Shown: positions 26,873 to 45,936 of the stretch, in pieces
How the letters are laid out: each line of letters begins with the position of its first letter
Numbering within the stretch: the first letter of the stretch is position 1
Assembly (NCBI RefSeq): GCF_009687865.1
Contig: NZ_BLAE01000066.1
Span: forward strand, 1 to 64,000
From: Acrocarpospora macrocephala
GTDB taxonomy: Bacteria > Actinomycetota > Actinomycetes > Streptosporangiales > Streptosporangiaceae
Direction: 5' to 3'
Length of the DNA: 64,000 bases
The notes under the pieces: generated by a model
Told to the model about the DNA's origin: nothing
The model's input: only the letters and a program-made list of their open reading frames with translations
The model's database searches: none
Position numbers and translations under genes: made by a program

Positions 26873-27706
26873 CTAACCTTTGACCGCGCCTCCGGTCAGG
26901 CCCTTCACGAAGTTCTTCTGCAGGGCGAGGTAGAAGATCAGGATCGGGAGGGTGGCCAGGAACATGAAGGCGAACAGGTCGCCGAAGTCGGATTCGTACT
27001 GGCCGATCGCCCGGTAGACGCCGACCGTCACCGTGGTGCCGCTGTCCGGGCCCAGCACGATCAGCGGGGTCAGGAAGTCGTTCCAGATCCACACCCCGAG
27101 GAAGATCAGCACACTGGCCGAGGCCGGGCGCAGCAGCGGGAAGACGACCTGCCAGAACACCCGGAACCTGCTCGCGCCGTCCAGCTCGGCCGCCTCCTCC
27201 AGCTCGCGCGGCACGCCCTTGACGAACCCCATGAACAGCAGCACGCCGAACGGCACGTAGTAGCCGACGTTCACCAGCACCAGGCCCTGCAACGTCGCCA
27301 TCAGGTCGAACGCCTTCAGCACCGACGTCACCGGGGACAGGATCACCGGAATCGGGATCATCAGCCCGCACAGCAACGTCACCAGCAGCACCTTCGCGAA
27401 CAGCCGGGTCGAGCGGGCCAGGTAGTGGCCGAGCATGGCCGACAGCACGGTCAGGATCGTGATCGACAGCGCGGTCACCGCGATGCTGTTGACCAGGCCG
27501 AAGGTGAACAGGTTGTCCTCGCGGGCGAACACCCCGCTGATGTTCTCCAGCGTCGGCGGCAGCGGCAGGCTGGCCGGGCTCGGCAGGATCTCCTCGCCCG
27601 GTTTGAAGACGTTCACCAGCATCAGGTAGAGCGGCAGGAAGAACGCCGCGCCCACGAAGATCGCGACCAGGGGCCGCAGCCAGGCATGCGTGCGCGCGTC
27701 GATCAC
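26873..27706 (-). CDS. Carbohydrate ABC transporter permease (MalG type)
   Basis: This 277-residue inner-membrane permease has six predicted helices and the EAA loop EEAAELDGASRFRVFWQVVF, which contacts the ATPase. It is the second permease of a CUT1-type importer and is followed 42 bp downstream by the alpha-mannosidase gene. No ATPase gene is in the operon, so a shared MsiK-type ATPase encoded elsewhere is expected. The substrate is probably a mannose- or fucose-containing oligosaccharide, judged from the neighbours. Confidence 0.92.
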   Translation of the reverse strand: MIDARTHAWLRPLVAIFVGAAFFLPLYLMLVNVFKPGEEILPSPASLPLPPTLENISGVFAREDNLFTFGLVNSIAVTALSITILTVLSAMLGHYLARSTRLFAKVLLVTLLCGLMIPIPVILSPVTSVLKAFDLMATLQGLVLVNVGYYVPFGVLLFMGFVKGVPRELEEAAELDGASRFRVFWQVVFPLLRPASASVLIFLGVWIWNDFLTPLIVLGPDSGTTVTVGVYRAIGQYESDFGDLFAFMFLATLPILIFYLALQKNFVKGLTGGAVKG

Positions 27707-27719
27707 TGAGTCACCTCTC

Positions 27720-28682
27720 TCATCGCGTCACCTCACGTCGCTGGAGCACCCGGAGCACGACCACCGAGACGCCCGCGACCAGCGCGAGCATCACCGCGGC
27801 CAGCGCCGAGGAGTAGCCGATCCGGTTGCCGACGAAGGCCTCCTTCACGACCTGGAAGGCCATGGTCGCGGTCGCCCCGGTGCCGGGACCGCCGTTGGTG
27901 ATCACCTGGATCTGGTCGTACGCCTTGAAGCCGGTGATCAGCAGCATCACGGTGTTGATGGTCAGCGCCGGGGCCAGCATCGGCCAGGTCACGTTCCTGA
28001 ACCGGGCCAGGCCGCCGGCGCCGTCGATGGCCGCCGCCTCCTGGAGCTCCCGCGGCACGCCCTGCAGCCCCGCCAGGTAGACCACCACGCAGAAGCCGAG
28101 CATCTGCCAGGTGATGATCCACGCGATCGAGTACAGCGCCAGCTCGGGATCCGACAGCCAGCCGGGCGGGTTCGCCACGCCCAGGCCGCGCAGCGCCGAG
28201 TTGAGCAGCCCGTCGTCGGTGAGCACAGAGCGCCAGATGACGCTGATCACCACCGAGCTGAGCACCACCGGGGTGAAGAACACCCCGCGCAGGGCCAGGT
28301 AGAGCTTGGACGGCCGGTCCAGCAACATCGCGATCAGCAGCCCGCCCACGTTCGCCAGCACGGTCACGATGAGCGTGATGATCACTGTGTTGGCGAGCGC
28401 CTGCAGGAACTCCGGGTCGCTCGCGAGCGTGACGTAGTTCCGGAACCCGACGAACTCGGTCGGCGGGTTGAACGGGTTGCGGTTGGTGAAGCTGTAGTAG
28501 CCCGTCATCAGGATGGGCAGCAGGACGAACAGTCCGTACGCCAGCAGACCGGGCAGGGCGAACAGGGCGAAGCGCCCCAGCTTCGGCGTCAGCCGGGCTC
28601 GGGCCGATCGCCGAGCCCGGGATGTGCGCGGCGGCGTGGCGAGCGCGGGCTCGCCACGAACCGCGTGCTTGGTGTCAGCCAT
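27720..28682 (-). CDS. Carbohydrate ABC transporter permease (MalF type)
   Basis: The 320-residue permease has an N-terminal basic cytoplasmic segment, six to seven helices, and an EAA loop reading LQEAAAIDGAGGLARFRNVT. It forms a heterodimer with the MalG-type permease encoded 13 bp downstream. The ATG directly follows the stop codon of the binding-protein gene, so all three transporter genes are co-transcribed. Confidence 0.92.
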   Translation of the reverse strand: MADTKHAVRGEPALATPPRTSRARRSARARLTPKLGRFALFALPGLLAYGLFVLLPILMTGYYSFTNRNPFNPPTEFVGFRNYVTLASDPEFLQALANTVIITLIVTVLANVGGLLIAMLLDRPSKLYLALRGVFFTPVVLSSVVISVIWRSVLTDDGLLNSALRGLGVANPPGWLSDPELALYSIAWIITWQMLGFCVVVYLAGLQGVPRELQEAAAIDGAGGLARFRNVTWPMLAPALTINTVMLLITGFKAYDQIQVITNGGPGTGATATMAFQVVKEAFVGNRIGYSSALAAVMLALVAGVSVVVLRVLQRREVTR

Positions 28683-29999
28683 CTACTGGGTTGCCTTGGC
28701 GTACTGCTCGTCGAGGTAGGCCGCGAACTCCTCGGCCGTCTTCTTGCCGGTGATCAGGTCCTGCACCGCCGTCGCCGCGGCGTCGGCCAGGCCCGGCGGC
28801 AGCGAGGCGTCCCCGGCCTCCTGGGAGAAGGCGTTGACGATCGACCCGTCCTTCATGCCCTGGTCGTAGATCGCGACGGTCGCCTGGTAGACCGGGCCCA
28901 TGTCGGTCGGCGGGACATAGCCCTTGATCGCCGGGATCGACCCGTCGGCCTTGACGAAGGCGTCGTTGTTCTCCTTGTCCTCGTCGAACGCCAGCGCCCA
29001 CTTCTTGGCCAGCTCGACGTTCTTCGCCGAGGAGCTGACCAGGGTGCCGCCGCCGGTGAAGGTCGGGGTGACCGGGGAGCCGTCGTCGGACGGCCACGGG
29101 AACGCGCCGATCTCGAAGCTCGGCTTGTTGTTGTCGGCCGAGGTCGCGAACCACGAGCCCATCGGATACATGGCGCCCTTGCCGTCCCGGAAGGCCTGCT
29201 CGCCGTCGGCGTAGGAGCGGCTAAGCCCGGCCTTGTCGATGTAGCCGTTCTTGGCCAGATCGGCGATCTTGCCCGCCGCCTTCACGAAGTCGGGGTCGCT
29301 GAACTTGACCGCGCCGGTGCGCCGCTGGACCAGCCAGTCCGGCGTCTTCTTGTAGACGTCGGTGGCCACCGTGCCGGTCAGCGGATACATGTCCGCCCAG
29401 GTGTCCGCGCCGCCACCGCTGACGATCATCGCGGTGAACCCGGCCTTCTTCAGCTTGGCCGACGCGTCTAGAAGCTCCTGGTACGTCGTGGGCGTCGCGG
29501 TGATACCCGCTTTGGAGAACTGGTCCTTGTTGTAGTAGACAACCGGGATGACCTGCGTGTTGTACGGCAACTGGTACACCTTGCCGTCGATCGCCCCCGC
29601 CGCCGGCGCGGTGAAGTTGGCCAGTTCCTCCGGCGTGAACGGAGCGAGCTTGCCCGCCTCGGCGAATCCGGCCGGGTTGACCGACTGCAGGATGTCCGGC
29701 AGGTTTCCGGCGGCGTCGAGCTGCTTGGCGTACGCGGTCCGGTCCACGTTCGGCGTGACCAGCTTCTTGATCTTCACCCCCGGTACCTTGGCGGTGGCCC
29801 GGGCGATGGCGGCGTCCCAGAACGCCGCGTTCAGGTTGGGCGTCTCGAAGACCAGGAAGGACAGCTCGACCTCGGCCGCCGCCCCGCTGGCGGCGGGCGC
29901 GCCGGACGGCTCCTGCGTACCCATTCCGCAACCCGCGGCCACCAGCATGCTGGTCACCGTTAATGCTATCGATCTGCGCACAAAAGTGGATCTGCGCAC
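28683..29999 (-). CDS. Sugar ABC transporter substrate-binding lipoprotein
   Basis: This 438-residue extracellular solute-binding protein (family 1) has a lipoprotein signal ending in LVAAGC with the lipid-modified Cys near residue 24. The mature domain shows the two-lobe pattern (YQLPYNTQVIPVVYYNKDQF; KGAMYPMGSWFA). The GTG at 29999 is preferred over an upstream ATG because a perfect AAGGAGGG site sits 7 nt before it. It is the first gene of the operon that continues with two permeases, GH38, the SurA-like protein and GH95. It is divergent from the LacI gene across a palindromic operator. Confidence 0.9.
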   Translation of the reverse strand: MRRSTFVRRSIALTVTSMLVAAGCGMGTQEPSGAPAASGAAAEVELSFLVFETPNLNAAFWDAAIARATAKVPGVKIKKLVTPNVDRTAYAKQLDAAGNLPDILQSVNPAGFAEAGKLAPFTPEELANFTAPAAGAIDGKVYQLPYNTQVIPVVYYNKDQFSKAGITATPTTYQELLDASAKLKKAGFTAMIVSGGGADTWADMYPLTGTVATDVYKKTPDWLVQRRTGAVKFSDPDFVKAAGKIADLAKNGYIDKAGLSRSYADGEQAFRDGKGAMYPMGSWFATSADNNKPSFEIGAFPWPSDDGSPVTPTFTGGGTLVSSSAKNVELAKKWALAFDEDKENNDAFVKADGSIPAIKGYVPPTDMGPVYQATVAIYDQGMKDGSIVNAFSQEAGDASLPPGLADAAATAVQDLITGKKTAEEFAAYLDEQYAKATQ

Positions 30000-30057: not shown

Positions 30058-30162
30058 CCGAAAGGTAGAGTGTTACTGCGAGGTTTCAAAGAGCGAGGAC
30101 GGCAACGAATTGGTCACATCCCCCGGATGGCCAAGAACGGCGATCATGAGAATGATGGGCAC

Positions 30163-31173
30163 ATGCACGGTGAGGTGAACAAGCGCGGCAGGACCCGGCG
30201 GCCGACGATGGTCGACGTGGCCCGGGAGGCGGGCGTGGCCCTGCGCACGGTCTCGCGGGTGGTCAACGACGACGCGACGGTCGGCTCCGAGCTGGCCAAA
30301 CGGGTGCACGACGCGATCGCCGCGCTCGACTACCGGCCGGACGAGCGGGCCCGGCACCTGCGCCTGGGCGTGACCGGCACGCTCGGCGCGGCCGTCCGCC
30401 AGCTCTCCCACGTCAACCCGGTGCTGCGCGCCGTCGAGCGGGCGGCCAGGGCGGCCGACCTGATGGTGCTGGCCGCCTCCACCGAGGACGACGAACGGCT
30501 GGAACGCCGGGTGGTCGAGTCGATGTGCCGCCGCCGCTTCGACGGGATCGTGCTGGAGCCGATCGGCGCCGACCACGGCTACCTGCTGCCGGAACTGGCC
30601 GCCGGGCTCTGCCTGGTCGCCGTGGACCGGCCGGTGCTCGGCCTGGACGTGGACTGCGTGATCTCCGACAACGTGGCCGGCATCCAGGCGGCGTACGCGC
30701 ACCTGGCCGCGCACGGCCACCGCCGCATCGCCTACGTCGGCGACGACGAGCGCATCTTCACCGCCCAGGAACGTGCCACCGCGTTCCGCGCCTGCGCCGC
30801 CGAGGCCGGAGCGGCCTTGGACGGCATGGTCCACACCGGCCCGATCGAACCGGCCAGGATCGTGCACGCCCTGGCCACCGCGCTGGAGGGCCCCGATCCG
30901 GCGACCGCGATCATCACGGGCAACGCCACGATCAGCGTCGAGGTGGTCCGCAGCTTCGACGACAGGAGGGTGGCCATCGTCGGGTTCGACGACTCCGAGC
31001 TGGCCACCTTGTTACGGCCGGACCTGACCGTGGTGGCCCAGGACGACCAGGCCATCGGCTCCACCGCCATCGACCTGCTCAGGGCCCGCATCGCCGACCA
31101 CAACCGCCCGGTCCACCGGGTCACGGTCCCGGTGGAACTGCTCGCCCGGGGTTCGGGCGAGCAGCCCCCGTGA
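30163..31173 (+). CDS. LacI-family transcriptional regulator
   Basis: The protein of about 336 residues contains the LacI helix-turn-helix TMVDVAREAGVALRTVSRVV and hinge DYRPDERARHLR. A periplasmic-binding-like effector domain follows (AATFRAC region, GFDDSELATLLRPDLTVVAQ). It likely represses the divergent glycan operon through GATAACGTTATC. The start is uncertain: ATG 30163, GTG 30175 and farther in-frame starts are all possible and none has a strong ribosome-binding site. The last codons lie within a hairpin shared with the convergent hydrolase gene, so the tail ARGSGEQPP is encoded by terminator sequence. Confidence 0.85.
   Translation: MHGEVNKRGRTRRPTMVDVAREAGVALRTVSRVVNDDATVGSELAKRVHDAIAALDYRPDERARHLRLGVTGTLGAAVRQLSHVNPVLRAVERAARAADLMVLAASTEDDERLERRVVESMCRRRFDGIVLEPIGADHGYLLPELAAGLCLVAVDRPVLGLDVDCVISDNVAGIQAAYAHLAAHGHRRIAYVGDDERIFTAQERATAFRACAAEAGAALDGMVHTGPIEPARIVHALATALEGPDPATAIITGNATISVEVVRSFDDRRVAIVGFDDSELATLLRPDLTVVAQDDQAIGSTAIDLLRARIADHNRPVHRVTVPVELLARGSGEQPP
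31138..31164. terminator. Bidirectional hairpin inside the LacI 3' end
   Basis: Eleven-bp arms (31138-31148 and 31154-31164) surround the loop GGGTT. It lies in the last codons of the LacI gene and just beyond the stop of the convergent hydrolase. A longer near-identical copy is found at 33040-33076 after the second hydrolase. Confidence 0.65.
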
Positions 31174-34696: not shown

Positions 34697-35512
34697 TCAG
34701 CCCTTGATCGCCCCCAGCAGGCCGTTCACGAAATACCTCTGAAGGAACAGGAACAGGGCGATAACGGGCAGCACGATGATCAGCGAGGCCGCCATCACCT
34801 CGTTGTAGCGCGGCACCTGGCTGGAGATCAGCGACTGCAGGCCGAGCGGCAGCGTGTAGAGCGACGGGTCGTTGATCGACACCCGGGTCAGCACGTACTC
34901 GTTCCAGGTCGGCACCGCGGTCAGCACCGCGATCGTGATGTGCGCGGGCCGCGCCAGCGGCAGATACACCGACCAGAAGATCCGCGCCTCCCGCGCGCCG
35001 TCCGCCCGCGCCGCCTCCCGCAGCTCCTTCGGAATCGACCGGTACGCCCCCGTGAGCAGCAACACGGTCAGCGGCGCCGTCCCGTTCACGAACGGCAGCA
35101 CCAGCCCGAGGTGCGACCCCAGGATGCCGAGGTTCTTCTCCAGGATCACCACCGGCAGCAGCATCGTGATCCCGGGCACGAACAGCAGCGACACGAAGAA
35201 CCAGAACAGGGCCCGCCGCCCGGGGAAGTCGAGCACCGCGAACGCGTACGACGCCAGCGAGTACACCACCAGCACCCCGAGCACGGTCAGCCCGGTCACC
35301 ACCAGGCTGTTGCGGAAGTACTCCACGAAGTGCAGCTGGTTCCAGGTGGTGACCAGGGTCTCCCAGGTCGGCAGCCGGGGGATGAGATGCCCGCCTTCCA
35401 GCACCTCCTCGCGGGTTTTGACCGCGCCCGACACCATCCACAGGAACGGGTAGACGCTGATCACGGCGTAGGCCGTGAGCACCGCGTACCCCGCGATCCG
35501 GCCGGCTCTCAT
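34697..35512 (-). CDS. Carbohydrate ABC transporter permease (MalG type)
   Basis: This 271-residue permease has six helices and the coupling loop LREAARADGAREARIFWSVY. It overlaps the MalF-type gene by 4 bp (stop/start), so both are made together. It belongs to the importer whose binding protein is encoded at 36441-37820. As in the other CUT1-like operon, no ATPase gene is present. A decayed copy of its 3' end is found at 32771-33018. Confidence 0.92.
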   Translation of the reverse strand: MRAGRIAGYAVLTAYAVISVYPFLWMVSGAVKTREEVLEGGHLIPRLPTWETLVTTWNQLHFVEYFRNSLVVTGLTVLGVLVVYSLASYAFAVLDFPGRRALFWFFVSLLFVPGITMLLPVVILEKNLGILGSHLGLVLPFVNGTAPLTVLLLTGAYRSIPKELREAARADGAREARIFWSVYLPLARPAHITIAVLTAVPTWNEYVLTRVSINDPSLYTLPLGLQSLISSQVPRYNEVMAASLIIVLPVIALFLFLQRYFVNGLLGAIKG

Positions 35513-36444
35513 CGGACCCTCCTCAGCAGTCGCGCGTTGGCCAGCGTCAGCAGCAGCGCGCCGGCGAACAGCAGCCAGCCGAGCGCGCTCGACACCCCGA
35601 GGGTGGCGGCCAACCCTTTGAAGAACGCCAGCCGGTAGGACTGCAGCCCGAGCACGTCGGTATGCCCGCCGGGCCCGCCGTCCGTCATGATCAGGAAGAT
35701 CTGGAAGCCGTGCAGGGAGTCACGAATCCCCAGCAGCACGATCCCGGCCGTGAGCGGCGTCAGCAGCGGCCAGGTGATCCGGCGCAGCAGCTGGCGCGGC
35801 GCCGCGCCGTCGATCCGCGCGGCCTCGAACAGCGCGGGGTCGATGGTCTGCAGGCCGGTCAGGTAGAGCAGGGTCGCGATCGGCACGCTCGACCACACCA
35901 GCACGACGATCAGCGTCGGCAGCGCGGTCGACGGGTTGCCCAGGAACCCTTGGGGTTGCGCCAGCGTGCCCAGTCCCAGCGAGCGCAGCAGCAGGTTGAT
36001 CGCGCCGTCGGGCTCCAGGATGTACCGCCAGGCGTAATACACGGCGATGCCGCTCGTGACGTACGGCAGGAAATACACCGACCGTAAGACCGCCCGCAGC
36101 CGTTTCACCGAGTTGAGCACGACGGCGAGCGGCAGCGAGATGGCGACGGTGAGCAGCGGCACCAGCACCATCACCTGTCCTGTGTTCCAGGCCGCCTTGC
36201 GTAGCGGGGGAGCCAGCGACGGATCGGCGTAGAGCAGGTCGAGGTAGTTGTCGAAACCGACCCAGATCCAGTTCGGGGTGAAGCCGTTCCACTTGGCGAA
36301 GCTGAGCGCCAGGCCGCTGCCGATCGTGTAGACGCCCATCACCGCGAACAGGGCCACGGCGGGGAAGACGAACGCCCACCCGGTCAGGGCGGCCCGCCAC
36401 CGGCCGGGCGGCCTGCGCCGCCCGGCCACGTGCTGGGTGATCAT
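35509..36444 (-). CDS. Carbohydrate ABC transporter permease (MalF type)
   Basis: The 311-residue permease begins MITQHVAGRRRPPGRWRAAL, has six helices, and a coupling loop FEAARIDGAAPRQLLRRITW. ATG 36444 is chosen because it overlaps the binding-protein stop as ATGA; a start 15 bp upstream is possible. It pairs with the MalG-type permease just downstream. The substrate is unknown but probably a glycan-derived sugar. Confidence 0.92.
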   Translation of the reverse strand: MITQHVAGRRRPPGRWRAALTGWAFVFPAVALFAVMGVYTIGSGLALSFAKWNGFTPNWIWVGFDNYLDLLYADPSLAPPLRKAAWNTGQVMVLVPLLTVAISLPLAVVLNSVKRLRAVLRSVYFLPYVTSGIAVYYAWRYILEPDGAINLLLRSLGLGTLAQPQGFLGNPSTALPTLIVVLVWSSVPIATLLYLTGLQTIDPALFEAARIDGAAPRQLLRRITWPLLTPLTAGIVLLGIRDSLHGFQIFLIMTDGGPGGHTDVLGLQSYRLAFFKGLAATLGVSSALGWLLFAGALLLTLANARLLRRVR

Positions 36445-37820
36445 TCCGACGATTTCCACATCGCGCCGAAGATCTCGTCGAGTTCGGATCCGGCCTGGGC
36501 GGGGGTGCGCTCCTTCAGCGGGCTCAGCCTGACCATCGCGTCACCCGGCTTGACCTGGTCGTAGTCCGGCGGGAAGAACGTGTTGTCGGCCGCGTCGTAG
36601 GTGCTCTCCGGGGTGCCGGTGAAGTACTTCTGCAGGGCCGCCAGGTCGGGGCCGACCAGGCTCGCCGCGTCCGTGCCCAGGTCGGTGGCGGGCAGGTCGA
36701 GCGAAGCCGAGGCGACGATCCCGGCACCCTTGGCCGAGGTGGCGAAGTCGATCCACTTGATCGCCGCCTCCCGGTTCTCAGTGGTGGCGGTGACGCCGAG
36801 CGAGGTCAGCGCCAGCGGCGCCATCGCGATCTCCTTCTGCTGCCCGCCGGCCGAGGGCGGGATCGGGAAGGCGAGCACCTTGTCCGGCGACATGCCGTTC
36901 TGAGCGAGGAACGCGAGCGTGAACGTGCCGCCCACATTGAAGGCCGACTTGCCCTGCGCGAACGCGATGTCCGCTTCGTCGATGTTGAGCGTGGTGGAGC
37001 TGGGCATCCAGTACGGCGTGAGCTGCCCGTACAGCTCCAGGGTCTTGACGCCGTCAGGGGAGCCGAAGCCCTGCGCGGCGCCCTTGGCGAACAGCGCCTG
37101 GAACCGGTCGCGGCCCAGGTAGGAGTGGGCCAGCGGCTGATACACCCAGTTGAAGCCGGTCTGGCTCACCTTCAGGCCGAGGGAGAGCCCGCCCGCGTCC
37201 GGCTCCTTCTCGGTGGTCGCCTTCAGCGCGGCCAGGAACTCCTCCCACGTCTTGGGCGGCGTGTCCGGGCTGAGCCCCGCGGCGGCGAGCTTCTCCTTGT
37301 TGGCGAAGACGATGCCGAACGCGCCGGCCGTGAACGGCACGCTGAACAGCGTCCCCGCCTTGACCTGCTTGAACGGCGAGTCGGCCGCGGCCCGGTCGAT
37401 GACGGCCTGGCTCATCAGACCGGCCTCCCTGGTGGTCGGCAGCAGCCGGTTCAGCCACTCCGCGCCGACGTCCGCCGACAGGTCGGACAGCAGCCCCGAC
37501 GCGCCCATCTCCCGGTCCTCGCCGCCCGCGTGCACCTCCAGCACGTCGGGCAGGTCGCCGGTCTGGGCCGCGCTCTGCACCTTGGCCTTGAACACGTCGT
37601 CCGGAGTGACCGCCTCGACCACGACACTGATCCCCGTGTCGGTCTTGAACTGCGCCGCCGCCTTGTTCAGCGCGTCGGCATGGGACTGCTTGAACGTCCA
37701 CATCCGTAAGGACTGCCCCGCCGCCTGGCTCCCTTCCGCGGCAGGCTGCGCGCCGGTGGAACACGCCGCCGCCAGCACTCCGCACAGGGCCACCGTGAGG
37801 ATTCGCGCTCGATAAGTCAT
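36441..37820 (-). CDS. Sugar ABC transporter substrate-binding lipoprotein
   Basis: This 459-residue family-1 extracellular binding protein has a lipoprotein signal ending LAAAC at Cys20, followed by LRMWTFKQSHADALNKAAAQ, a typical start of the mature domain. ATG 37820 has a GGAAGGG site and replaces a 78-bp longer frame. It heads an operon with two permeases and probably hydrolase copy 2. A near-consensus promoter with internal palindromes lies just upstream, directly behind the TetR-LacI fusion gene, which is the likely regulator. Confidence 0.9.
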   Translation of the reverse strand: MTYRARILTVALCGVLAAACSTGAQPAAEGSQAAGQSLRMWTFKQSHADALNKAAAQFKTDTGISVVVEAVTPDDVFKAKVQSAAQTGDLPDVLEVHAGGEDREMGASGLLSDLSADVGAEWLNRLLPTTREAGLMSQAVIDRAAADSPFKQVKAGTLFSVPFTAGAFGIVFANKEKLAAAGLSPDTPPKTWEEFLAALKATTEKEPDAGGLSLGLKVSQTGFNWVYQPLAHSYLGRDRFQALFAKGAAQGFGSPDGVKTLELYGQLTPYWMPSSTTLNIDEADIAFAQGKSAFNVGGTFTLAFLAQNGMSPDKVLAFPIPPSAGGQQKEIAMAPLALTSLGVTATTENREAAIKWIDFATSAKGAGIVASASLDLPATDLGTDAASLVGPDLAALQKYFTGTPESTYDAADNTFFPPDYDQVKPGDAMVRLSPLKERTPAQAGSELDEIFGAMWKSSE

Positions 37821-37870
37821 CAGGACCCTTCCGAGTGATGGATGACGCAAATCGTTAAGACTGACCCTGG

Positions 37871-37898
37871 AATCTACACGCGTGCATTCACGTGTCAA
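37871..37898 (-). promoter_or_regulatory. Promoter with two palindromes between -35 and -10, upstream of the ABC operon
   Basis: On the minus strand, TTGACA (37893-37898) and TAGATT (37871-37876) are separated by 16 bp. CACGCGTG (37877-37884) and CACGTG (37889-37894) are perfect palindromes whose centres are 11 bp apart, one helical turn. A repressor bound here would block RNA polymerase. The central-CG symmetry fits a LacI-type HTH. Confidence 0.65.
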
Positions 37899-37901
37899 GG
37901 G

Positions 37902-39725
37902 TTACGCGGACTCGCGTTCGACTAGGCGGGCCGGGATGACGATCTCCGTCGGGATCAGTGCGGCCGGCTCGCCGGAGAGGCGTTCCAGCAGGCGCATCCC
38001 GCATGCGCGTCCGATCTCTCTGGCTGGGTTCGCCATCGTGGTCAGGCGGGGACGGACCAGGCTGGCCGCGTCGATGTCGTCGAAGCCCATCACGGCCAGG
38101 TCTCCTGGCACGTGGAGGCCGCGTCCTCCTGCTGCGTCGAGGGCGCCTATCGCCATCAGGTCGTTGGCGCACAACACGGCGTCGGGGGGTTCGGACAGGT
38201 CCAGCAGCCGGGATACGCCCGCCGCGCCGCCGTGCCTGCTGAAGTGCGTGTACGCCACGAGCTCCGGGTCTGTCGCTACTCCGGCGGCGAGTAGCGCGGA
38301 CCGGTAACCGGACACTCGTTCGGCTGCCGGGCCCTCAGCGCTCGGTCCGCAGATGAAACCGATTCGGCGGTAGCCGCGGGTTAGCAGGTAGCGGGTGGCC
38401 TCGGCAGCGCCGCCCTCGTCGTCGCTGTGGACCAGGTCGACGCCGTCCTGGACCAGGGTGCCGCCCAGCCGTACCACCGGGATGCCCGCTTCGATGGCCG
38501 GGTTCAGGTCTTCGGCGTGGGTGTGGAAGACGGCGAAGGCCAGGCCGTCCACCTGGCGGGCGATCATCTGCTCGATGGCGGCGCGTTCGCGGGTCCGGTC
38601 GCCGTCGGTGTTGCTGATGATCTCGTCGTATCCGGCCGGTCGGAGCACGTCCTGCAGGCCGCGGGCCAGGGCTGGGTAGAACGGGTTGGTGATGTCCGGG
38701 ATGACCAGGCCGATGGTCTGGCTGCGGTTGGTGCGCAGGCCTCTGGCCAGCGCATTCGGGCGGTAACCGAGCTGGCGGATGGCTTCCAGCACGCGGTCGC
38801 GGGTCTCGGCGGCGACCGGGCGGCGGCCGTTCAGGGTGTGCGAGACGGTGGTCGCGCTCACCCCGGCGACCCGGGCGACCCGGACGATGCTGACCCGTTC
38901 CCCGCCCCGGTCGCCGCGTTGTGCGGGTTTGGGCGGGTTGAGCAGGTTGAGGGTCTCCTGCGGGTCCAGGGGAGCGCTGGATGGGCGAGGGGTCCTGACC
39001 GGCGCGCGGTTGCGGGACAGCAGGTCGAGCGCGTTCATCAGGATGCGCCTGCCGTGCGCCGCCGCGTCCCCCGGATTCCCCTTGTCGGCCAGCATGAGCA
39101 GCGCGGACTCCCACGCCTCCCGCACGGCGGCCAGCAGCAGCGCGGCCATCACGCCCGGCGAAATCGCCAGATGACCGGCCTCGATGGCGCGAGATAGCGC
39201 GGCCTCGCGCGCCGCGAACGCCTCCCGCGCGTGCGCGCGCAACAGCGGGCTGTCCCGGTAGACAACCGCGCGTTCAGCCAGCGCCACGGCCGGGTTGGCT
39301 AGCGACCCCGCCGGGTTGGCCAGCGGTCCCGCCGGGTTGGCGAGGGGTCTGGTCGGGTTGGTCGGTGGTGCAGCCGGGTTGGCGAGCGGTCTGGTCGGGT
39401 TGGTCGGTGGTGCAGCCGGGGTGGCCAGCGGTGCGGTCGCGCATGCCCATTCGGCCAGGCCCTGGCGGAGGGTCTCCGGGCTGGTCCAGGAGGCGTCCGG
39501 CAGATCGGGCGGCAGCAACTTTGGCTCGGCGTCGAAGAAGAGCTGCTCTTTGGTGGGGAAGTAGTTGAAGATGGTCTTCGCGGCCACATCGGCGGCCACC
39601 GCGATCTCGGCCACGGTGACAGCCTCGAAACCGCGCTCCGCGAACAGGCGTTGCGCCGTATCGGCGATCGAGCGCCGGGTCAGCGCCTTCCGCCGTTCAC
39701 GGCGATCGGGGACCTGCTCGGACAT
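37902..39725 (-). CDS. TetR-LacI fusion transcriptional regulator
   Basis: This 607-residue protein joins two complete regulator types. Residues about 12-62 are a TetR helix-turn-helix (TVAEIAVAADVAAKTIFNYF). Residues 63-235 resemble a TetR ligand domain interrupted by seven heptapeptide repeats (99-147). Residues about 278-330 are a LacI helix-turn-helix (IVRVARVAGVSATTVSHTLN), and 335-605 a LacI effector domain (GLVIPDITNPFYPALARGLQ). No stop separates the halves, and there is no ATG, GTG or TTG between Met230 and the LacI recognition helix, so LacI cannot start on its own by ordinary means. The ATG has a weak ribosome-binding site; TATAAG 9 nt upstream suggests leaderless mRNA. It lies 81 bp upstream of the ABC operon it probably controls. 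Confidence 0.85.
   Translation of the reverse strand: MSEQVPDRRERRKALTRRSIADTAQRLFAERGFEAVTVAEIAVAADVAAKTIFNYFPTKEQLFFDAEPKLLPPDLPDASWTSPETLRQGLAEWACATAPLATPAAPPTNPTRPLANPAAPPTNPTRPLANPAGPLANPAGSLANPAVALAERAVVYRDSPLLRAHAREAFAAREAALSRAIEAGHLAISPGVMAALLLAAVREAWESALLMLADKGNPGDAAAHGRRILMNALDLLSRNRAPVRTPRPSSAPLDPQETLNLLNPPKPAQRGDRGGERVSIVRVARVAGVSATTVSHTLNGRRPVAAETRDRVLEAIRQLGYRPNALARGLRTNRSQTIGLVIPDITNPFYPALARGLQDVLRPAGYDEIISNTDGDRTRERAAIEQMIARQVDGLAFAVFHTHAEDLNPAIEAGIPVVRLGGTLVQDGVDLVHSDDEGGAAEATRYLLTRGYRRIGFICGPSAEGPAAERVSGYRSALLAAGVATDPELVAYTHFSRHGGAAGVSRLLDLSEPPDAVLCANDLMAIGALDAAGGRGLHVPGDLAVMGFDDIDAASLVRPRLTTMANPAREIGRACGMRLLERLSGEPAALIPTEIVIPARLVERESA
39285..39431 (-). repeat. Seven 21-bp repeats encoding heptapeptides inside the fusion regulator
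   Basis: Residues 99-147 consist of seven heptads of the forms PLANPAA/PLANPAG and PPTNPTR. The first four form two copies of a 14-residue (42-bp) unit that are almost identical in DNA. All repeats keep the reading frame. The stretch is Pro/Asn-rich and probably flexible, inserted in the TetR ligand-binding part. Confidence 0.85.
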
Positions 39726-39733
39726 GGACCGAT

Positions 39734-39767
39734 CTTATATCGAGACACTCCTTACACCGGCTATAAG
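39734..39767. promoter_or_regulatory. CTTATA...TATAAG inverted repeat upstream of the fusion regulator
   Basis: CTTATA (39734-39739) and TATAAG (39762-39767) are inverted copies just upstream of the regulator start. On the minus strand the proximal one reads TATAAG and could serve as -10. The site could be an autoregulatory operator. Confidence 0.35.
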
Positions 39768-39831
39768 TTAAGGGATCTGAGAAGGTCGCCAGCTTGCTCG
39801 CCGTTACCCGGCGCCGATCACGCCGACGATG

Positions 39832-39976
39832 GTTCTCGCCGTACCGGCGCCAAGGAGCGACGGCGAAGGTTCTTGCCGTACCGGCGCCATGGAGCGACGG
39901 CGAAGGTTCTTGCCGTACCGGCGCCGAGGAGCGACGGCGAAGGTTCCCGCCGTACCGGCGCCATGGAGCGACGGCG
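39832..39976. repeat. 37-bp tandem repeat, about four copies
   Basis: The unit, containing GCCGTACCGGCGCC and GGAGCGACGGCGAAGG, repeats with an exact 37-bp period (GTACCGGC at 39841, 39878, 39915 and 39952). Differences between copies are few. Each unit has an internal GCCG-TAC-CGGC dyad. A 37-bp period cannot preserve a reading frame, so it is non-coding. The rest of the 39726-40107 gap holds nothing else recognised. Confidence 0.85.
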
Positions 39977-40107: not shown

Positions 40108-41361
40108 TCAGGGTGCTTCGATTCCGCCGTCTGGGCGGCGGACTCGGGAGGACCAGCGTTCGTGTTGGTGGGCCACTGGGGGGTGTTCTGCCGCTCTGGC
40201 CTCGTCTAGGTCGATTCCCCAGCCGGGGGTGTTGTTTGGGTAGAGGTAGCCGTTTGTTGGGTGGATTGTGCCGGGGAAGACCTCGTGGACGGTGTCGGCG
40301 TAGATGTGGCCTTCCTGGATTTGGAAGGCGGGGGAGGTGACGTCGAGGGCCACGTTGGCGGCGGCGCCGATGGGGGAGACGTCGGCGGGGGAGTGCCAGG
40401 CGGTGCCGACGCCGGTTAGTTCGCAGAGGGCGGTGAGTTTGCGGGCGGGGGTGAGGCCGCCGATCGCGGAGACGTGCAGGCGTAGCAGGTCGATGCCGCC
40501 GCCGGTGATCAGGCGAGCCGCGTCGGACACTGAGCTGAGCTGCTCGCCGGCGGCGATCGGCATTGGTGCGGCGGCGCGGACCTCGGGGAGCCGGTCGTAG
40601 AGTTCGGGTGCGATCGGGTCTTCCAGGAAGAACAGCCGGTAGGGCTCCAGTGCGCGGGCCAAGCCAACCGCTTGCTTGGGTGTGAGACGGGAATGCACAT
40701 CGTGCATCAGGCCCGGTTCCTCGCCCAGCTCTTGGCGGGCACGCTCGAACAGCAGCGGGGTTTCGCGCAGGTAGCGCTGGACGTCCCAGCCGTCGGGGTA
40801 GGGCGAATTCGGGTAGCCGCCCGGGGATCCTGGCGCGCCGTAGTGGCCGAGGCCGGGTGCGCCGGTCTGGAGGCGGACATGGCGGTAGCCGGAGGCCAGC
40901 AGGGTGCGGGCGTGCTCGATGGTCTCCTCGAGAGTGGCGGCGCCCGCGTGCAGGTAGGTGTCGGCGGCGGCGCGAACCCGGCCGCCGAGCAGCTCGTAGA
41001 CCGGCATTCCGGCGCGTTTGCCCGCGATGTCCCACAGCGCTTGGTCCACACCGGAGAGAGCGCTGTTCAGAACCGGACCGCCACGCCAGTACGAGGAATA
41101 GTGCACCATCCGCGTGATGTCCTCGATGTCCGCCGGATGACGACCCGTCAGCATCGGGGCCACATGCTGGTCGACCGCGGCGGCCACGGCGTGGAAACGC
41201 TGGGTGAAAGTGGCGCACCCCAGGCCGTACAGACCGGGTTCGGTGGTGTCGACCTTGACCACCACCAGCGGCACGCCCTCGGGGGCGGTGACGATGGCGC
41301 GGACTCTGGTGATGCGCAGGGCGTCGCGGGCCGCCCAGGGGGCCTGGGTCTCCTCCATCAT
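40108..41361 (-). CDS. Enolase-superfamily sugar-acid dehydratase (RspA/ManD-like)
   Basis: This 417-residue protein is a mandelate-racemase-type enzyme close to the RspA/mannonate dehydratase group. The N-terminal capping domain includes GRHPADIEDITRMVHYSSYW and SGVDQALWDIAGKRAGMPVY. In the barrel, metal ligands are seen in HDVHSRL (Asp), FFLEDPIAP (Glu) and AAGEQLS (Glu), with a late AWHSPAD that supplies a catalytic His. The ATG overlaps the stop of the upstream SDR gene (ATGA). Together they could oxidise a sugar or lactone and dehydrate the acid. The precise substrate is not resolved. Confidence 0.88.
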   Translation of the reverse strand: MMEETQAPWAARDALRITRVRAIVTAPEGVPLVVVKVDTTEPGLYGLGCATFTQRFHAVAAAVDQHVAPMLTGRHPADIEDITRMVHYSSYWRGGPVLNSALSGVDQALWDIAGKRAGMPVYELLGGRVRAAADTYLHAGAATLEETIEHARTLLASGYRHVRLQTGAPGLGHYGAPGSPGGYPNSPYPDGWDVQRYLRETPLLFERARQELGEEPGLMHDVHSRLTPKQAVGLARALEPYRLFFLEDPIAPELYDRLPEVRAAAPMPIAAGEQLSSVSDAARLITGGGIDLLRLHVSAIGGLTPARKLTALCELTGVGTAWHSPADVSPIGAAANVALDVTSPAFQIQEGHIYADTVHEVFPGTIHPTNGYLYPNNTPGWGIDLDEARAAEHPPVAHQHERWSSRVRRPDGGIEAP

Positions 41362-42209
41362 GGCGCGAACAGGTGCTGGGCGGTGAAGCCGAGCAGGTCG
41401 GCGGCCACGGCGAGATCCACGGGCGCGGTATGGCCGGGCAGGGGCGATCGGCGTTCCACATCGGGATGGTAGCGGCCGAGCAGCTCCTCGGTCGGCTGCG
41501 GCGCCAGCGTCGTCGGCGCGGTCACGAAGACCGCGTGATACCCGCTGATCGGCCGCGTGAGCGCCTGCCACCCGGCCATCGCCGCGTCCCTGCTGTCCAG
41601 GTACGTCCACAGCTCCTTGGCCCCCGACTCAGGCGAGACCGCATACCGCGCCGCGGTGTCCTCGAACTTGTCGCCAGGCCCGCCCAGCAGCGGAAATCGC
41701 AACGCGACCACGGTCATCCCGTGCCGGCGCGCCATCATCGCCGCCGTGGCCTCGTCCACCTGCTTCGACAGCCCGTACGGATCCTCGATCTGCACCGGCA
41801 GCGCCTCGTCCACCGGCACGTACGCCGGATGCAACCGCCGAGCCGCCCACGGCAACCCGAGCACGGACAGGCTGCTGGCCACCACCGCCCGCGACACCCC
41901 GGCCTGCCCCGCCTCCTCCAGCACCACGAAGGTCGCCCGTGTATTCCCGCAGAAGACCGCTTCCGGCGTATCCAGCGTGGGCGCCGGAATCGCGGCCAGA
42001 TGCGCCACCGCGTCCACGCCCTTGAGCGCCTCCCGCACCACCTCCGGATCGCCCGCGCCGCCCACCACGACCCGATCCGCTACATCGCCGGGATCTCGCT
42101 GGTCGAGCGCGGTAGCCGCGACGCCCATGGCCGCGAGCAGGCGGAGCGTGGCCCGCCCCAACCGGCCCGCTGCCCCCGTGACCAGGACCCGGCGAGGGAC
42201 CTCCGCCAT
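41358..42209 (-). CDS. NAD(P)-dependent SDR/epimerase-like sugar dehydrogenase
   Basis: The 283-residue extended-type SDR has VLVTGAAGRLGRATLRLLAA, the AHLAAIPAP segment, and an active-site DPYGLSKQVDEA holding Tyr-x-x-x-Lys. The layout resembles uronate dehydrogenases and related sugar oxidoreductases. It is translationally coupled to the downstream dehydratase and preceded by a palindromic operator, making a two-gene sugar-acid operon. Confidence 0.87.
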   Translation of the reverse strand: MAEVPRRVLVTGAAGRLGRATLRLLAAMGVAATALDQRDPGDVADRVVVGGAGDPEVVREALKGVDAVAHLAAIPAPTLDTPEAVFCGNTRATFVVLEEAGQAGVSRAVVASSLSVLGLPWAARRLHPAYVPVDEALPVQIEDPYGLSKQVDEATAAMMARRHGMTVVALRFPLLGGPGDKFEDTAARYAVSPESGAKELWTYLDSRDAAMAGWQALTRPISGYHAVFVTAPTTLAPQPTEELLGRYHPDVERRSPLPGHTAPVDLAVAADLLGFTAQHLFAP

Positions 42210-42233: not shown

Positions 42234-42247
42234 GCAAAACGTTTTGC
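42234..42247. promoter_or_regulatory. LacI-type operator, perfect GCAAAACGTTTTGC palindrome
   Basis: This 14-bp palindrome with central CG lies 25 bp upstream of the SDR start. It resembles catabolite-control and LacI-family sites. The controlling protein is unknown; the TetR-LacI fusion encoded 2.5 kb away is one candidate. Confidence 0.7.
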
Positions 42248-42750: not shown

Positions 42751-45700
42751 ATGTCAATGAGGCTTCAACGAATCCTGCTGGTGTCGCTCCTGGCGGCCGG
42801 ACTGGGGCTGACCGGCGTGCCGGCGCCGGCCGTGGCCTCCACCACCGACCATGCCTTCGACCAGGCCGGCGGGACACTGAACGTCAACCGCGCGGCCTAC
42901 ATGTCCAAGCACGACATCGTGTACAACCGGCCGAACACCAACCCGCTGCACGGGCTCACGGTGGGCAACGGCAAGACCGGCGCGATGGTCTGGCACCAGA
43001 ACGGCCTCACCATGCAGGTCGGCGGCGTGGACCTGTCCCAGCAGTCCGCCTTCGGCGCGGGCCTGCTCAACCTGCGGACCACCCCCGCGATGGACAGCGG
43101 CTACAGCACGTACCAGGAGCGCCTCTCCCTGTACGACGGCACGCACACCACCAAGTACGACAACAACCGCACCGTCACCATCATGGGCTCGCCCGGCTCC
43201 GAGGTGATGGGCATCCACGTGGACGACAGCCGTAGCGGCCTGTCCAACATCACGTTCGAGCTCAGCATGTGGGACCCGAACACGGTCCAGAACATGGCCG
43301 ACGTGCCCGACCTCAACACCTGGCGGAACATCACCTCCTTCGCGGACGCCACCGCCGCCGGCATCAGCCGCGGCCAGACCGACGCGAACAACTTCGGCTA
43401 CACCCTGGCCGCCAGCGTCGAGGGCGCGAACTTCACCACCCAGGCCGTCAACAACCGCACGGTCCGCTTCACCATCACCCCGACCGCCAGCTACACCATC
43501 TGGTTCACCGCGGCCAGCCGGATCAACTCGCCCGGCCTCAACTCGGTGACCCAGGCGCGCAACCAGCTGACCGCCGTGAAGAACACCGGCTACAGCACCA
43601 CGTTCACCAACTACAAGAACTGGTGGCACGCGTTCTGGGAGAAGTCGTTCGTGCAGTACTCGAACGGCTCCAAGGACGCGGACTACATGGAGAACGTGTA
43701 CTACCTGAGCACGTACATGATCGCGTCCGCGGGTTTCGGTAACTACCCGGCGCACTTCATCAACGGCAACTTCCGGGCGACGCAGGATCAGACCAAGTGG
43801 AGTAACGCGTACTGGTACTGGAACCAGCGCGACGTCTACTACTCCTTCCTGGCGTCCAACCACGCGGACATGTACAACACGTTCAACCGGTTGCAGAGCC
43901 GTAACTACAACGCGCTGAAGGCGTACACGCAGACCCGGTACAACGCCGACGCCCTCTGGGTGCCCGAGACGATGGGCTGGGACGGCAACGCGCGCGGGAC
44001 GATCAACAGCGACTACACCAAGAACATCCTGTCCACGGGCACCGAGGCCGCCTACAGCATGTACCTGCAGTATCGGTACACCAACGACCTCAACTACCTG
44101 CAGACCGTGGCGTACCCGTTCATGCGGGAGTCGGTGAAGCTCTACAAGGCGCTGCTGTCCTTCGACAGCGCGACCGGCAAGTACTACATGGCCAACTCCA
44201 ACTCGCACGAGACCTACTGGAACGTGCGCAACGCCATCACCGACCTCACCTCGGTGCGGCTGCTGTTCCCGCTGACCATCGCGGTGAGCCAGCAGCTGGG
44301 CGTGGACGCCGGCCTGCGGGCCGACTGGCAGAACATCCTGAACAACCTGGTCGCCTACAGCGTCGTCAACAACGCCTACCAGCCGCACCAGCCGCCGATC
44401 TCGCAGACCCGCAACAACGAGAACGTGGCCGCCGAGATCATCTGGCCGTACGACCTGACCGGCATCGGCTACCCCGACTACGGAACCGCCGTGCAGACCT
44501 GGAACGTCCGGCCGCACCCGTACGGCAACGTCTGGTCCAACGACCACGCCCAGGCCGCCCGCCTCGGCCTCGGCGACCAGACGTACAACGGCATGAAGAC
44601 CATGCTGCAGCGGTACCAGAACTACCCGAACGGCATGACCAACAACACCAACGGCGTCTTCGAGTACCTCGGCATCCACCTGGTCGCGATGAACGAGTCG
44701 CTGCTGCAGTCGTACAACGACAAGATCAGGGTCTTCCCGGCGGTCCCGGGCGACTCCACCTTCGTCGGCAAGTTCACCCTGCTCGCCAAGGACGGCCACC
44801 TGGTCAGCTCCGAGCGCGAGGGCGGCGAGATCAAGTACGTCGGCCTCAAGTCGCTGTACGGCAAGCAGGCCACCGTGGTCAACCCGTGGGGCACCCAGCA
44901 GGTCCGGGTCCGCCGCACCTCCGACAACGCGATCATCACCACCAGCTCGGCCGCCGAGATCAGCTTCGCCACCGCCGCCAACACGGTCTACGTGGTGGAG
45001 CGCACCGGCAAGCTGCTGTCGGCCTACAGCGCCACCCAGCTGACCGGCACCGCCAACCAGGGCCAGAAGGCCCTGTCCGGCACCGCCTCCACGCTGGGCC
45101 TGGGCAGCGGCTCGGGCGGCGGCCTGATCAACGACACCGACCTCACCTACGACGCCAACTGGCACCACACCACCGCGCGGGGTTACGGCGACTACAACGA
45201 CGACACCCACCACAGCAACACGGTGAACGCCGCCGCGACCTACACCTTCACCGGGACCGGGATCGAGATCCTGTCCGAGCGGTTCAGCGACATGGGCAAC
45301 ATGGATGTCTATCTCGACAACGTGTTCCAGCAGAACGTCAATCTGAACCAGGGCGGCGCCCGCCAGGCCCAGCAGGTCGTCTACGCCAAGACCGGCCTGG
45401 CCAGCGGCCAGCACACGCTCCGGGTGGTCAACAAGACGACCTCGGTCGGCATGATCGACGCCCTCCGGGTCACCACCGGCGGCACCCCGCCCACCGGGAA
45501 CATCGTCGCCCTGCGGTCCCGGGCGAACAACCAGTACGTCACCGCCGCCAACGGCGTCGCGCTGATCGCCAACTCCACCACCGTGGGCACCGGCCAGAAG
45601 TTCGAGCGGGTCGACCTGGGCGGCGGCAACATCGCGCTCAAGGCCCAGGTCAACAACCAGTTCGTGGCCGCCGAGAACGCGGGCGCGGCGCCGCTCATCG

Positions 45701-45885
45701 CCAACCGCCCGTCGGCCGGCGCCTGGGAGACGTTCGCCCTGGTGAACAACCCCAACGGCTCGGTCAGCCTGCGGGCCACGGTGAACAACATGTACGTCTG
45801 CGCGGAAGGCGGCGGCGCCCAGTCGCTGATCGCCAACCGGGCAGCCATCGGACCATGGGAGCAGTTCGACCTGGTCCCCAGCTGA
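42751..45885 (+). CDS. Secreted GH95-like (DUF5703) hydrolase with carbohydrate-binding and fascin-like domains
   Basis: This 1044-residue secreted protein has a signal peptide (MSMRLQRILLVSLLAAGLGL, ending near PAVAS). A GH95-like/DUF5703 N-terminal beta domain follows (NPLHGLTVGNGKTGAMVW), then an (alpha/alpha)6 barrel (WYWNQRDVYYSFLASNHADM). A galactose-binding-like sandwich spans about 770-910. The C-terminus has three beta-trefoil repeats of fascin type (ALRSRANNQYVTAANG; ALKAQVNNQFVAAENAG; SLRATVNNMYVCAEGGG). An alpha-L-fucosidase-like or related exoglycosidase role is inferred. ATG 42751 has a GAGGAAG site 7 nt upstream; the longer frame lacks a signal peptide. It precedes the fuconate dehydratase operon. 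Confidence 0.8.
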   Translation: MSMRLQRILLVSLLAAGLGLTGVPAPAVASTTDHAFDQAGGTLNVNRAAYMSKHDIVYNRPNTNPLHGLTVGNGKTGAMVWHQNGLTMQVGGVDLSQQSAFGAGLLNLRTTPAMDSGYSTYQERLSLYDGTHTTKYDNNRTVTIMGSPGSEVMGIHVDDSRSGLSNITFELSMWDPNTVQNMADVPDLNTWRNITSFADATAAGISRGQTDANNFGYTLAASVEGANFTTQAVNNRTVRFTITPTASYTIWFTAASRINSPGLNSVTQARNQLTAVKNTGYSTTFTNYKNWWHAFWEKSFVQYSNGSKDADYMENVYYLSTYMIASAGFGNYPAHFINGNFRATQDQTKWSNAYWYWNQRDVYYSFLASNHADMYNTFNRLQSRNYNALKAYTQTRYNADALWVPETMGWDGNARGTINSDYTKNILSTGTEAAYSMYLQYRYTNDLNYLQTVAYPFMRESVKLYKALLSFDSATGKYYMANSNSHETYWNVRNAITDLTSVRLLFPLTIAVSQQLGVDAGLRADWQNILNNLVAYSVVNNAYQPHQPPISQTRNNENVAAEIIWPYDLTGIGYPDYGTAVQTWNVRPHPYGNVWSNDHAQAARLGLGDQTYNGMKTMLQRYQNYPNGMTNNTNGVFEYLGIHLVAMNESLLQSYNDKIRVFPAVPGDSTFVGKFTLLAKDGHLVSSEREGGEIKYVGLKSLYGKQATVVNPWGTQQVRVRRTSDNAIITTSSAAEISFATAANTVYVVERTGKLLSAYSATQLTGTANQGQKALSGTASTLGLGSGSGGGLINDTDLTYDANWHHTTARGYGDYNDDTHHSNTVNAAATYTFTGTGIEILSERFSDMGNMDVYLDNVFQQNVNLNQGGARQAQQVVYAKTGLASGQHTLRVVNKTTSVGMIDALRVTTGGTPPTGNIVALRSRANNQYVTAANGVALIANSTTVGTGQKFERVDLGGGNIALKAQVNNQFVAAENAGAAPLIANRPSAGAWETFALVNNPNGSVSLRATVNNMYVCAEGGGAQSLIANRAAIGPWEQFDLVPS

Positions 45886-45936
45886 GGCACCTGATACCGA
45901 GCTGAGACCCGCACACCCCTTCAAATCGTCTAATGT

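Follow-up and report, generated by a model that had tools for sequence, protein, structure and literature searches.

The window, a stretch of 64,000 nucleotides of Acrocarpospora macrocephala DNA, carries on its reverse strand a gene (37902..39725, −) in which a stop-free frame of 607 codons joins a TetR-type regulator to a LacI-type regulator. In a Pfam search with the fusion protein, TetR_N was matched at residues 20-64 (E 1.3e-16) and the LacI helix-turn-helix (HTH) at residues 283-324 (E 1.4e-14), together with Peripla_BP_1 (residues 336-583) and Peripla_BP_3 (residues 445-606), so that the LacI-type sugar-binding stretch spans residues 336-606 overall. The protein can be divided into a TetR-type HTH DNA-binding domain (residues 9-66; 39528..39701, −), a TetR C-terminal helical part of variable length (residues 67-238; 39012..39527, −), an interdomain linker (residues 239-276; 38898..39011, −), a LacI-type HTH and hinge region (residues 277-330; 38736..38897, −) and a LacI/PBP-type effector and dimerisation domain (residues 331-607; 37905..38735, −), for which the best solved matches were CcpA chains, followed by RbsR and PurR. 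The best NCBIfam match of the TetR half is MftR, below the cut-off of that family. A Pro-rich tandem repeat lies inside the TetR C-terminal part (residues 96-146 approximately; 39289..39439, −; periods of 21 and 42 bp by Tandem Repeats Finder). The preliminary description of this DNA had read one uninterrupted frame with two DNA-binding domains of different families and had proposed a domain search and a count of genomes with the same domain order; Pfam confirms both HTHs in the 607-residue product, and the TetR–LacI order recurs in 25 genomes.

The GC content at third codon positions (GC3) is 0.82-0.93 across all parts of the fusion gene except the Pro-rich repeat (0.78), with a value of 0.82 for the linker at the junction; a hidden frameshift is unlikely because GC3 stays high along the whole gene, linker included. 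A −10-like box, TATAAGATC (39731..39739, −), which was read from the sequence and stands 5 bp before the ATG, speaks for the full-length start. With at most one mismatch and at 4-7 bp before the start, this box is kept in 24 of the 25 fusions, Nonomuraea MG754425 being the exception, and its position suggests that the promoter of the fusion gene is leaderless. Past Met230, the first in-frame start codon is GTG289, which lies inside the LacI HTH just ahead of the predicted recognition helix (residues 291-299). The earlier statement that no start codon occurs between Met230 and this helix had missed the GTG in the turn of the HTH; the conclusion drawn from it, that a stand-alone LacI is unlikely to arise from the window gene, nevertheless stands. 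A 37-bp tandem repeat of 4.8 copies (39797-39976) separates the enolase stop from the fusion promoter; the enolase gene ends approximately 45 bp before the fusion ATG in two other Acrocarpospora.

The neighbouring genes on the same strand encode an NAD-dependent epimerase/dehydratase (SDR; 41358..42209, −; Pfam Epimerase), a ManD-like dehydratase of the enolase superfamily (MR_MLE; 40108..41382, −, the likely coding part of the open reading frame 40108-41610), which scored 357 bits against NCBIfam ManD, under the cut-off of 550, and the components of a sugar ABC transporter, namely a substrate-binding protein (SBP; 36441..37820, −; SBP_bac_1), permease 1 (35509..36459, −; BPD_transp_1) and permease 2 (34697..35512, −; BPD_transp_1). 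Twenty of the 25 loci have orthologues of the SDR and SBP genes next to the fusion. No orthologous SDR, SBP, enolase or complete transporter was found within the 11.7-13.3 kb examined in five Nonomuraea (A123, MG754425, endophytica, PA05 and gerenzanensis). In Nonomuraea A123, the fusion is directly followed by 62 residues of permease 1 at 90% identity (L065 6715-6900), which are likely to be a remnant of a lost transporter operon. The fusion has GH99 genes as neighbours in N. jiangxiensis and N. endophytica. A sugar acid or a mannose-type glycan is a plausible substrate of the locus.

A TetR–LacI fusion in one open frame was found in 25 actinomycete genomes, the window included, comprising three Acrocarpospora (with the window), seven Nonomuraea, seven Herbidospora, five Planotetraspora, one Streptosporangium, one Microtetraspora and G181. 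A scan of named genomes, with one genome for each of 84,980 species and with TetR-HTH patterns only, so that it is blind to unfused LacI counts, returned 66 loci, 22 of which are fusions (two Acrocarpospora, six Nonomuraea, seven Herbidospora, five Planotetraspora, one Streptosporangium and one Microtetraspora); these, with the window, G181 and Nonomuraea gerenzanensis, make up the 25. The other 44 loci of the scan showed a TetR-HTH match or, at L084 and L122, a LacI by itself, and five further long TetR frames (L057-L061) were without a LacI match. One of these, a 425-residue frame at L061 2322-3596(+), contains two TetR_N stretches, like the double-TetR type of Mce3R, and a second 425-residue frame with two TetR matches occurs in G186 (contig C214).

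Searches were also made with the fusion protein in 100 related genomes and with the LacI half in a 150-genome sample of the family. At E 1e-90, the LacI half was matched in 20 of the 150 family genomes, 18 at 73-100% identity and two as distant homologues (49-53%). The LacI orthologue (at least 73% identity) is fused in 16 of those 18 genomes and unfused in two, G186 and G148. Within the genus of the window, three of five genomes carry the fusion, and the other two (G003 and G004) gave no match to it at E 1e-80. Among 79 genomes of the class, three matches were obtained at E ≤1e-80, namely the window and two unfused LacI proteins. TetR_N (PF00440) and LacI (PF00356) were both matched in 23 of 23 aligned fusions, which goes beyond chance, and so were Peripla_BP_1 and Peripla_BP_3. 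The recurrence of a single open frame in 25 actinomycete genomes upholds the earlier proposal of a genuine fusion. Relatives with two separate genes in its place had been named as a finding that would speak against it; this check left the fusion unrefuted, as the two genomes with an unfused LacI have no TetR gene alongside.

Sequence comparison within four genus groups shows that both HTHs are under purifying selection: dN/dS was 0.03, 0.26, 0.16 and 0.16 for the TetR HTH and 0.04-0.07 for the LacI HTH, with 0.06-0.16 for the LacI effector domain, 0.13-0.44 for the TetR C-terminal part and 0.14-1.01 for the linker. The TetR HTH is 58 residues long in all 24 fusions compared, and its recognition-helix residues are invariant. 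In the same 24 fusions, the linker varies from 17 to 102 residues and the TetR C-terminal part from 105 to 179 residues, the latter with a mean identity of 39% between genera. A TetR C-terminal family (TetR_C_14) was matched in only 4 of the 23 aligned fusions, and a Pro-rich stretch interrupts this part in the window and in Acrocarpospora pleiomorpha. Positions with an unchanged L, F, W or E nevertheless persist in the C-terminal helical stretches of the 23 aligned TetR halves. In one AlphaFold model of the window protein, the blocks of the TetR half from residue 11 have pLDDT 73-93 outside the insertion, the insertion itself is predicted to be disordered (pLDDT <50 at residues 104-141), the linker is of low confidence (pLDDT <50 at residues 241-276), and the LacI half is weakly modelled (mean pLDDT 68.8, pTM 0.39). 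The 50 Foldseek matches listed are LacI-family chains and, given the weak model of this half, only repeat the LacI assignment. The preliminary description had credited both halves with an effector domain; this is so for the LacI half, but the TetR C-terminal part is eroded in places and may sense nothing.

Two candidate LacI operators were found at the locus. The first, O1 (GCAAAACGTTTTGC; 42234..42247, −), lies before the SDR gene and is a perfect palindrome with a central CG. It is the sole match in the window at up to two mismatches, and 12 of 100 shuffles likewise gave one. All 20 loci that have the SDR gene carry the form CAAAWCGWTTTGC in front of it. A 15-base form of O1, GCAAAWCGWTTTGCR, has one exact place in the genome of the window and matches in 9 of 14 genomes, with two in G145; it is absent, like the 14-base form, from three of the 12 fusion genomes searched (G013, G106 and G181), because the first base differs there, and it is also absent from both genomes with an unfused LacI. 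Even palindromes centred on CG are the norm for sites of the LacI family, according to the excerpted text of PMC4052901. In Herbidospora (L066-L070, L075 and L076), O1 has an extra TTTTGC arm six bases before GCAAAAC, approximately 27-50 bp before the SDR start, and overlapping palindromes thus share the site.

The second, O2 (TCTTAACGATTTGCG; 37846..37860, −), lies before the transporter operon and starts 10 bp past a promoter-like TTGACA-N16-TAGATT (37871..37898, −), which was read from the sequence and has similar strings, recognized by eye, in 11 loci. O2 has a central CG and is an imperfect palindrome. With at most one mismatch, each of 11 fusion genomes has it in a single place, just 3′ of the fusion, and it is exact in nine; the pattern read backwards, used as a control, gave one match among the 11 genomes, in G149. 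When the first 13 bases were searched with one mismatch, O2 was present within 900 bp downstream of the fusion in 22 of 25 loci and absent from this interval in Nonomuraea A123, MG754425 and endophytica. The transporter genes follow O2, with one extra gene between them in Planotetraspora silvatica and N. jiangxiensis. In Nonomuraea endophytica, an O2-type site (L079 4882(−)) stands before the GH99 gene that is divergent from the fusion.

O2 is also found where the TetR half is missing. In G186 and G148, the LacI orthologue stands alone with a GTG start behind the Shine-Dalgarno sequence AAGGAGGT, and the same O2 site is kept downstream of it before the same transporter genes; O2 is therefore assigned to the LacI half. 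No TetR gene adjoins the unfused LacI in these two genomes, no SDR or enolase gene was found in the stretch examined, and a close separate TetR was not detected elsewhere in either genome, the best match having 46-58% identity over the HTH region. A more distant unfused LacI (54%) occurs in G224, from another family, beside an enolase gene that begins like that of the window, as compared by eye (L147 173-1474(+) and 1498-2520(−)). The loci of G186, G148 and G224 thus indicate that the LacI module exists with the transporter or the enolase without a TetR half. In the phylogenetic tree, the unfused pair is nested among the fused proteins (starred support 99/97) and the outgroup branches are long; an alternative tree in which the fused proteins were held together was not rejected (p-AU 0.44 and 0.26).

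A candidate operator for the TetR half was found in the promoter of the fusion gene. The imperfect inverted repeat CTTATA-N5-TGTAAG (39751..39767, −) sits upstream of the −10 box and contains the top-scoring inverted repeat (5+5+5, score 0.744) in the 60 bp upstream of the 25 fusions, weighted by genus. Column permutations reached this score in 0 of 300 and 3 of 1000 trials. Six rows (Planotetraspora and N. soli) had been moved by one base manually, as their ATG lies one base further; with these rows left in place, the figure was 2 of 1000. Between some lineages, the half-sites differ on both sides (TTATA/TATAA and TTTCA/TGAAA), and such two-sided differences would fit a dimer site. Only two or three of the five pairs are kept in 9 of the 25 loci (five Planotetraspora, Microtetraspora, and Nonomuraea MG754425, soli and gerenzanensis).

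A matrix made from this repeat, with the genus under test left out, was then applied to the SDR side. Nine of 18 loci (N. jiangxiensis, N. soli, five Herbidospora, Streptosporangium and Microtetraspora) gave a TetR-like box at shuffle p ≤0.04, against 2 of 24 for the O2 stretch as a control; the shuffles are of single bases, the p values are uncorrected, related loci are non-independent, and the five Herbidospora scored do not include L075 and L076. The box is non-significant in the window and two Acrocarpospora (p 0.13-0.21), in the five Planotetraspora and in G181. The SDR-side matches of Herbidospora overlap the string TATAAGATC, as in the −10 box of the fusion itself, and may therefore be promoter elements. 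In Herbidospora, Streptosporangium and N. soli, the TetR-like box lies approximately 80-106 bp and O1 approximately 27 bp before the SDR start. The inverted repeat at 39751-39767, in the promoter of the fusion gene itself, is probably bound by the TetR half, and these patterns favour a TetR half that binds DNA, most likely to autoregulate its gene and, in some members of the clade, to act on the SDR promoter as well.

On the basis of the domain conservation and the candidate sites, the fusion may control a sugar-acid locus as a conserved one-component regulator with two heads, an autoregulatory TetR half and a LacI half acting on O1 and O2; a probability of roughly 0.53 is given to this reading. 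In the proposed mechanism, the LacI half would sense a sugar or sugar-acid ligand and would repress the SDR–enolase genes via O1 and the ABC transporter genes via O2. The TetR half, as a dimer, could occupy the inverted repeat at the fusion's own promoter, which would result in autoregulation, and in several genera it could also take the similar box upstream of the SDR promoter. The flexible linker would hold both repressors at equal dose, and one molecule could reach two classes of sites. Site binding by the two halves, the direction of regulation, the ligands, the oligomeric state and DNA bridging are points that we infer from sequence. The bridging of two operators, which had been suggested at the outset, would agree with candidate sites that are separate for TetR and LacI. 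The further step, in which the TetR and LacI heads would sit at the same time on adjacent boxes at the SDR promoter and would also link the promoters of the fusion and the transporter, with a two-ligand logic beyond that of separate repressors, is doubtful.

The alternative that survives best, though it is itself rather unlikely, is that the TetR half is a mere DNA-anchoring and autoregulatory add-on whose sensing is gone, so that the LacI half alone governs induction. The variable length of the TetR C-terminal part, its low identity between genera and its Pro-rich insertion agree with such a loss, as does the retention of O2 by unfused LacI proteins without an adjacent TetR. Against it, the invariant positions in the C-terminal helical stretches of the 23 TetR halves, which are confidently predicted in the window, would fit at least dimerisation. 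It is improbable that the TetR half has become a functionless vestige and that the protein acts as a plain LacI repressor: the LacI-only genomes and the drift of the TetR C-terminal part and linker could be read in this way, but purifying selection acts on the TetR HTH, whose recognition helix has invariant residues, an inverted repeat is found at the fusion promoter, and the two halves are fused in 16 of the 18 family genomes with the LacI orthologue.

The production of two proteins from one frame, with a LacI protein released by an internal start or by proteolysis, is very unlikely. Of the 25 fusions, 20 have at least one start codon in the stretch from 70 to 10 residues ahead of the LacI HTH motif, five of them with a purine-rich, Shine-Dalgarno-like string; however, the other five fusions have no start codon in that stretch, the positions of internal starts are not conserved, and the AAGGAGGT site of the unfused LacI is missing at that place in the fusions. 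An internal LacI start was accordingly rejected as unlikely in the window. A sequencing, assembly or frameshift artefact joining two genes has a negligible probability and was ruled out by the fusions of the relatives, 25 genomes in all, and by the GC3 that continues through the junction.

The fusion resembles the LacI/GalR sugar repressors with the CcpA, RbsR and PurR fold in its HTH, hinge, PBP-like effector domain and candidate CG-centred sites before sugar-uptake genes. Standard LacI/GalR members begin at the HTH, whereas the fusion carries an N-terminal TetR module, which comprises roughly 165-250 residues in the alignments. With TetR-family repressors it shares the TetR_N HTH, a C-terminal part predicted to be helical and a candidate inverted repeat in its own promoter, and it differs from them in being joined to a LacI protein and in a C-terminal part that is short in some members and interrupted by a Pro-rich stretch in others. 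In chimeras of the AraR type (GntR–LacI) and the XylR type (LacI-like–AraC), a LacI-type effector is combined with part of another regulator family, and these proteins possess one type of DNA-binding domain; in contrast, the fusion possesses two DNA-binding domains of different families. Bacterial one-component regulators normally consist of one DNA-binding head and one sensor. Heads from two families, separate candidate sites and a natural unfused lineage make the fusion a testable case of regulator rewiring by fusion, and gene switches with two inputs could be built on it as a ready natural scaffold.

The nearest printed precedent found is Mce3R, an autoregulated double-TetR repressor, which, as described in the excerpts of PMC11667970, has a single ligand-binding domain and a non-palindromic operator. 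Like the fusion, Mce3R holds two different HTHs in one polypeptide; both of its halves are TetR, whereas the fusion combines one TetR_N stretch with LacI and has separate candidate sites of palindromic form. No natural TetR–LacI fusion was recognized from titles and the beginnings of abstracts in the open-access full-text literature, and the pair is not named in the excerpts of PMC5882156 on the companion domains of 19 regulator families. The TetR–LacI architecture is real and conserved and, as far as the literature searched shows, undescribed, in agreement with the initial impression that no such family was known.

Elsewhere in the window, a second, ordinary LacI regulator was identified by Pfam at 30070-31173(+), and the region beside it (26873-29999(−)) apparently contains another sugar ABC transporter operon, as judged from gene calls only. 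A 1056-residue open frame at 42754-45924(−) runs antisense to a GH95-like gene and is probably a by-product of high GC content.
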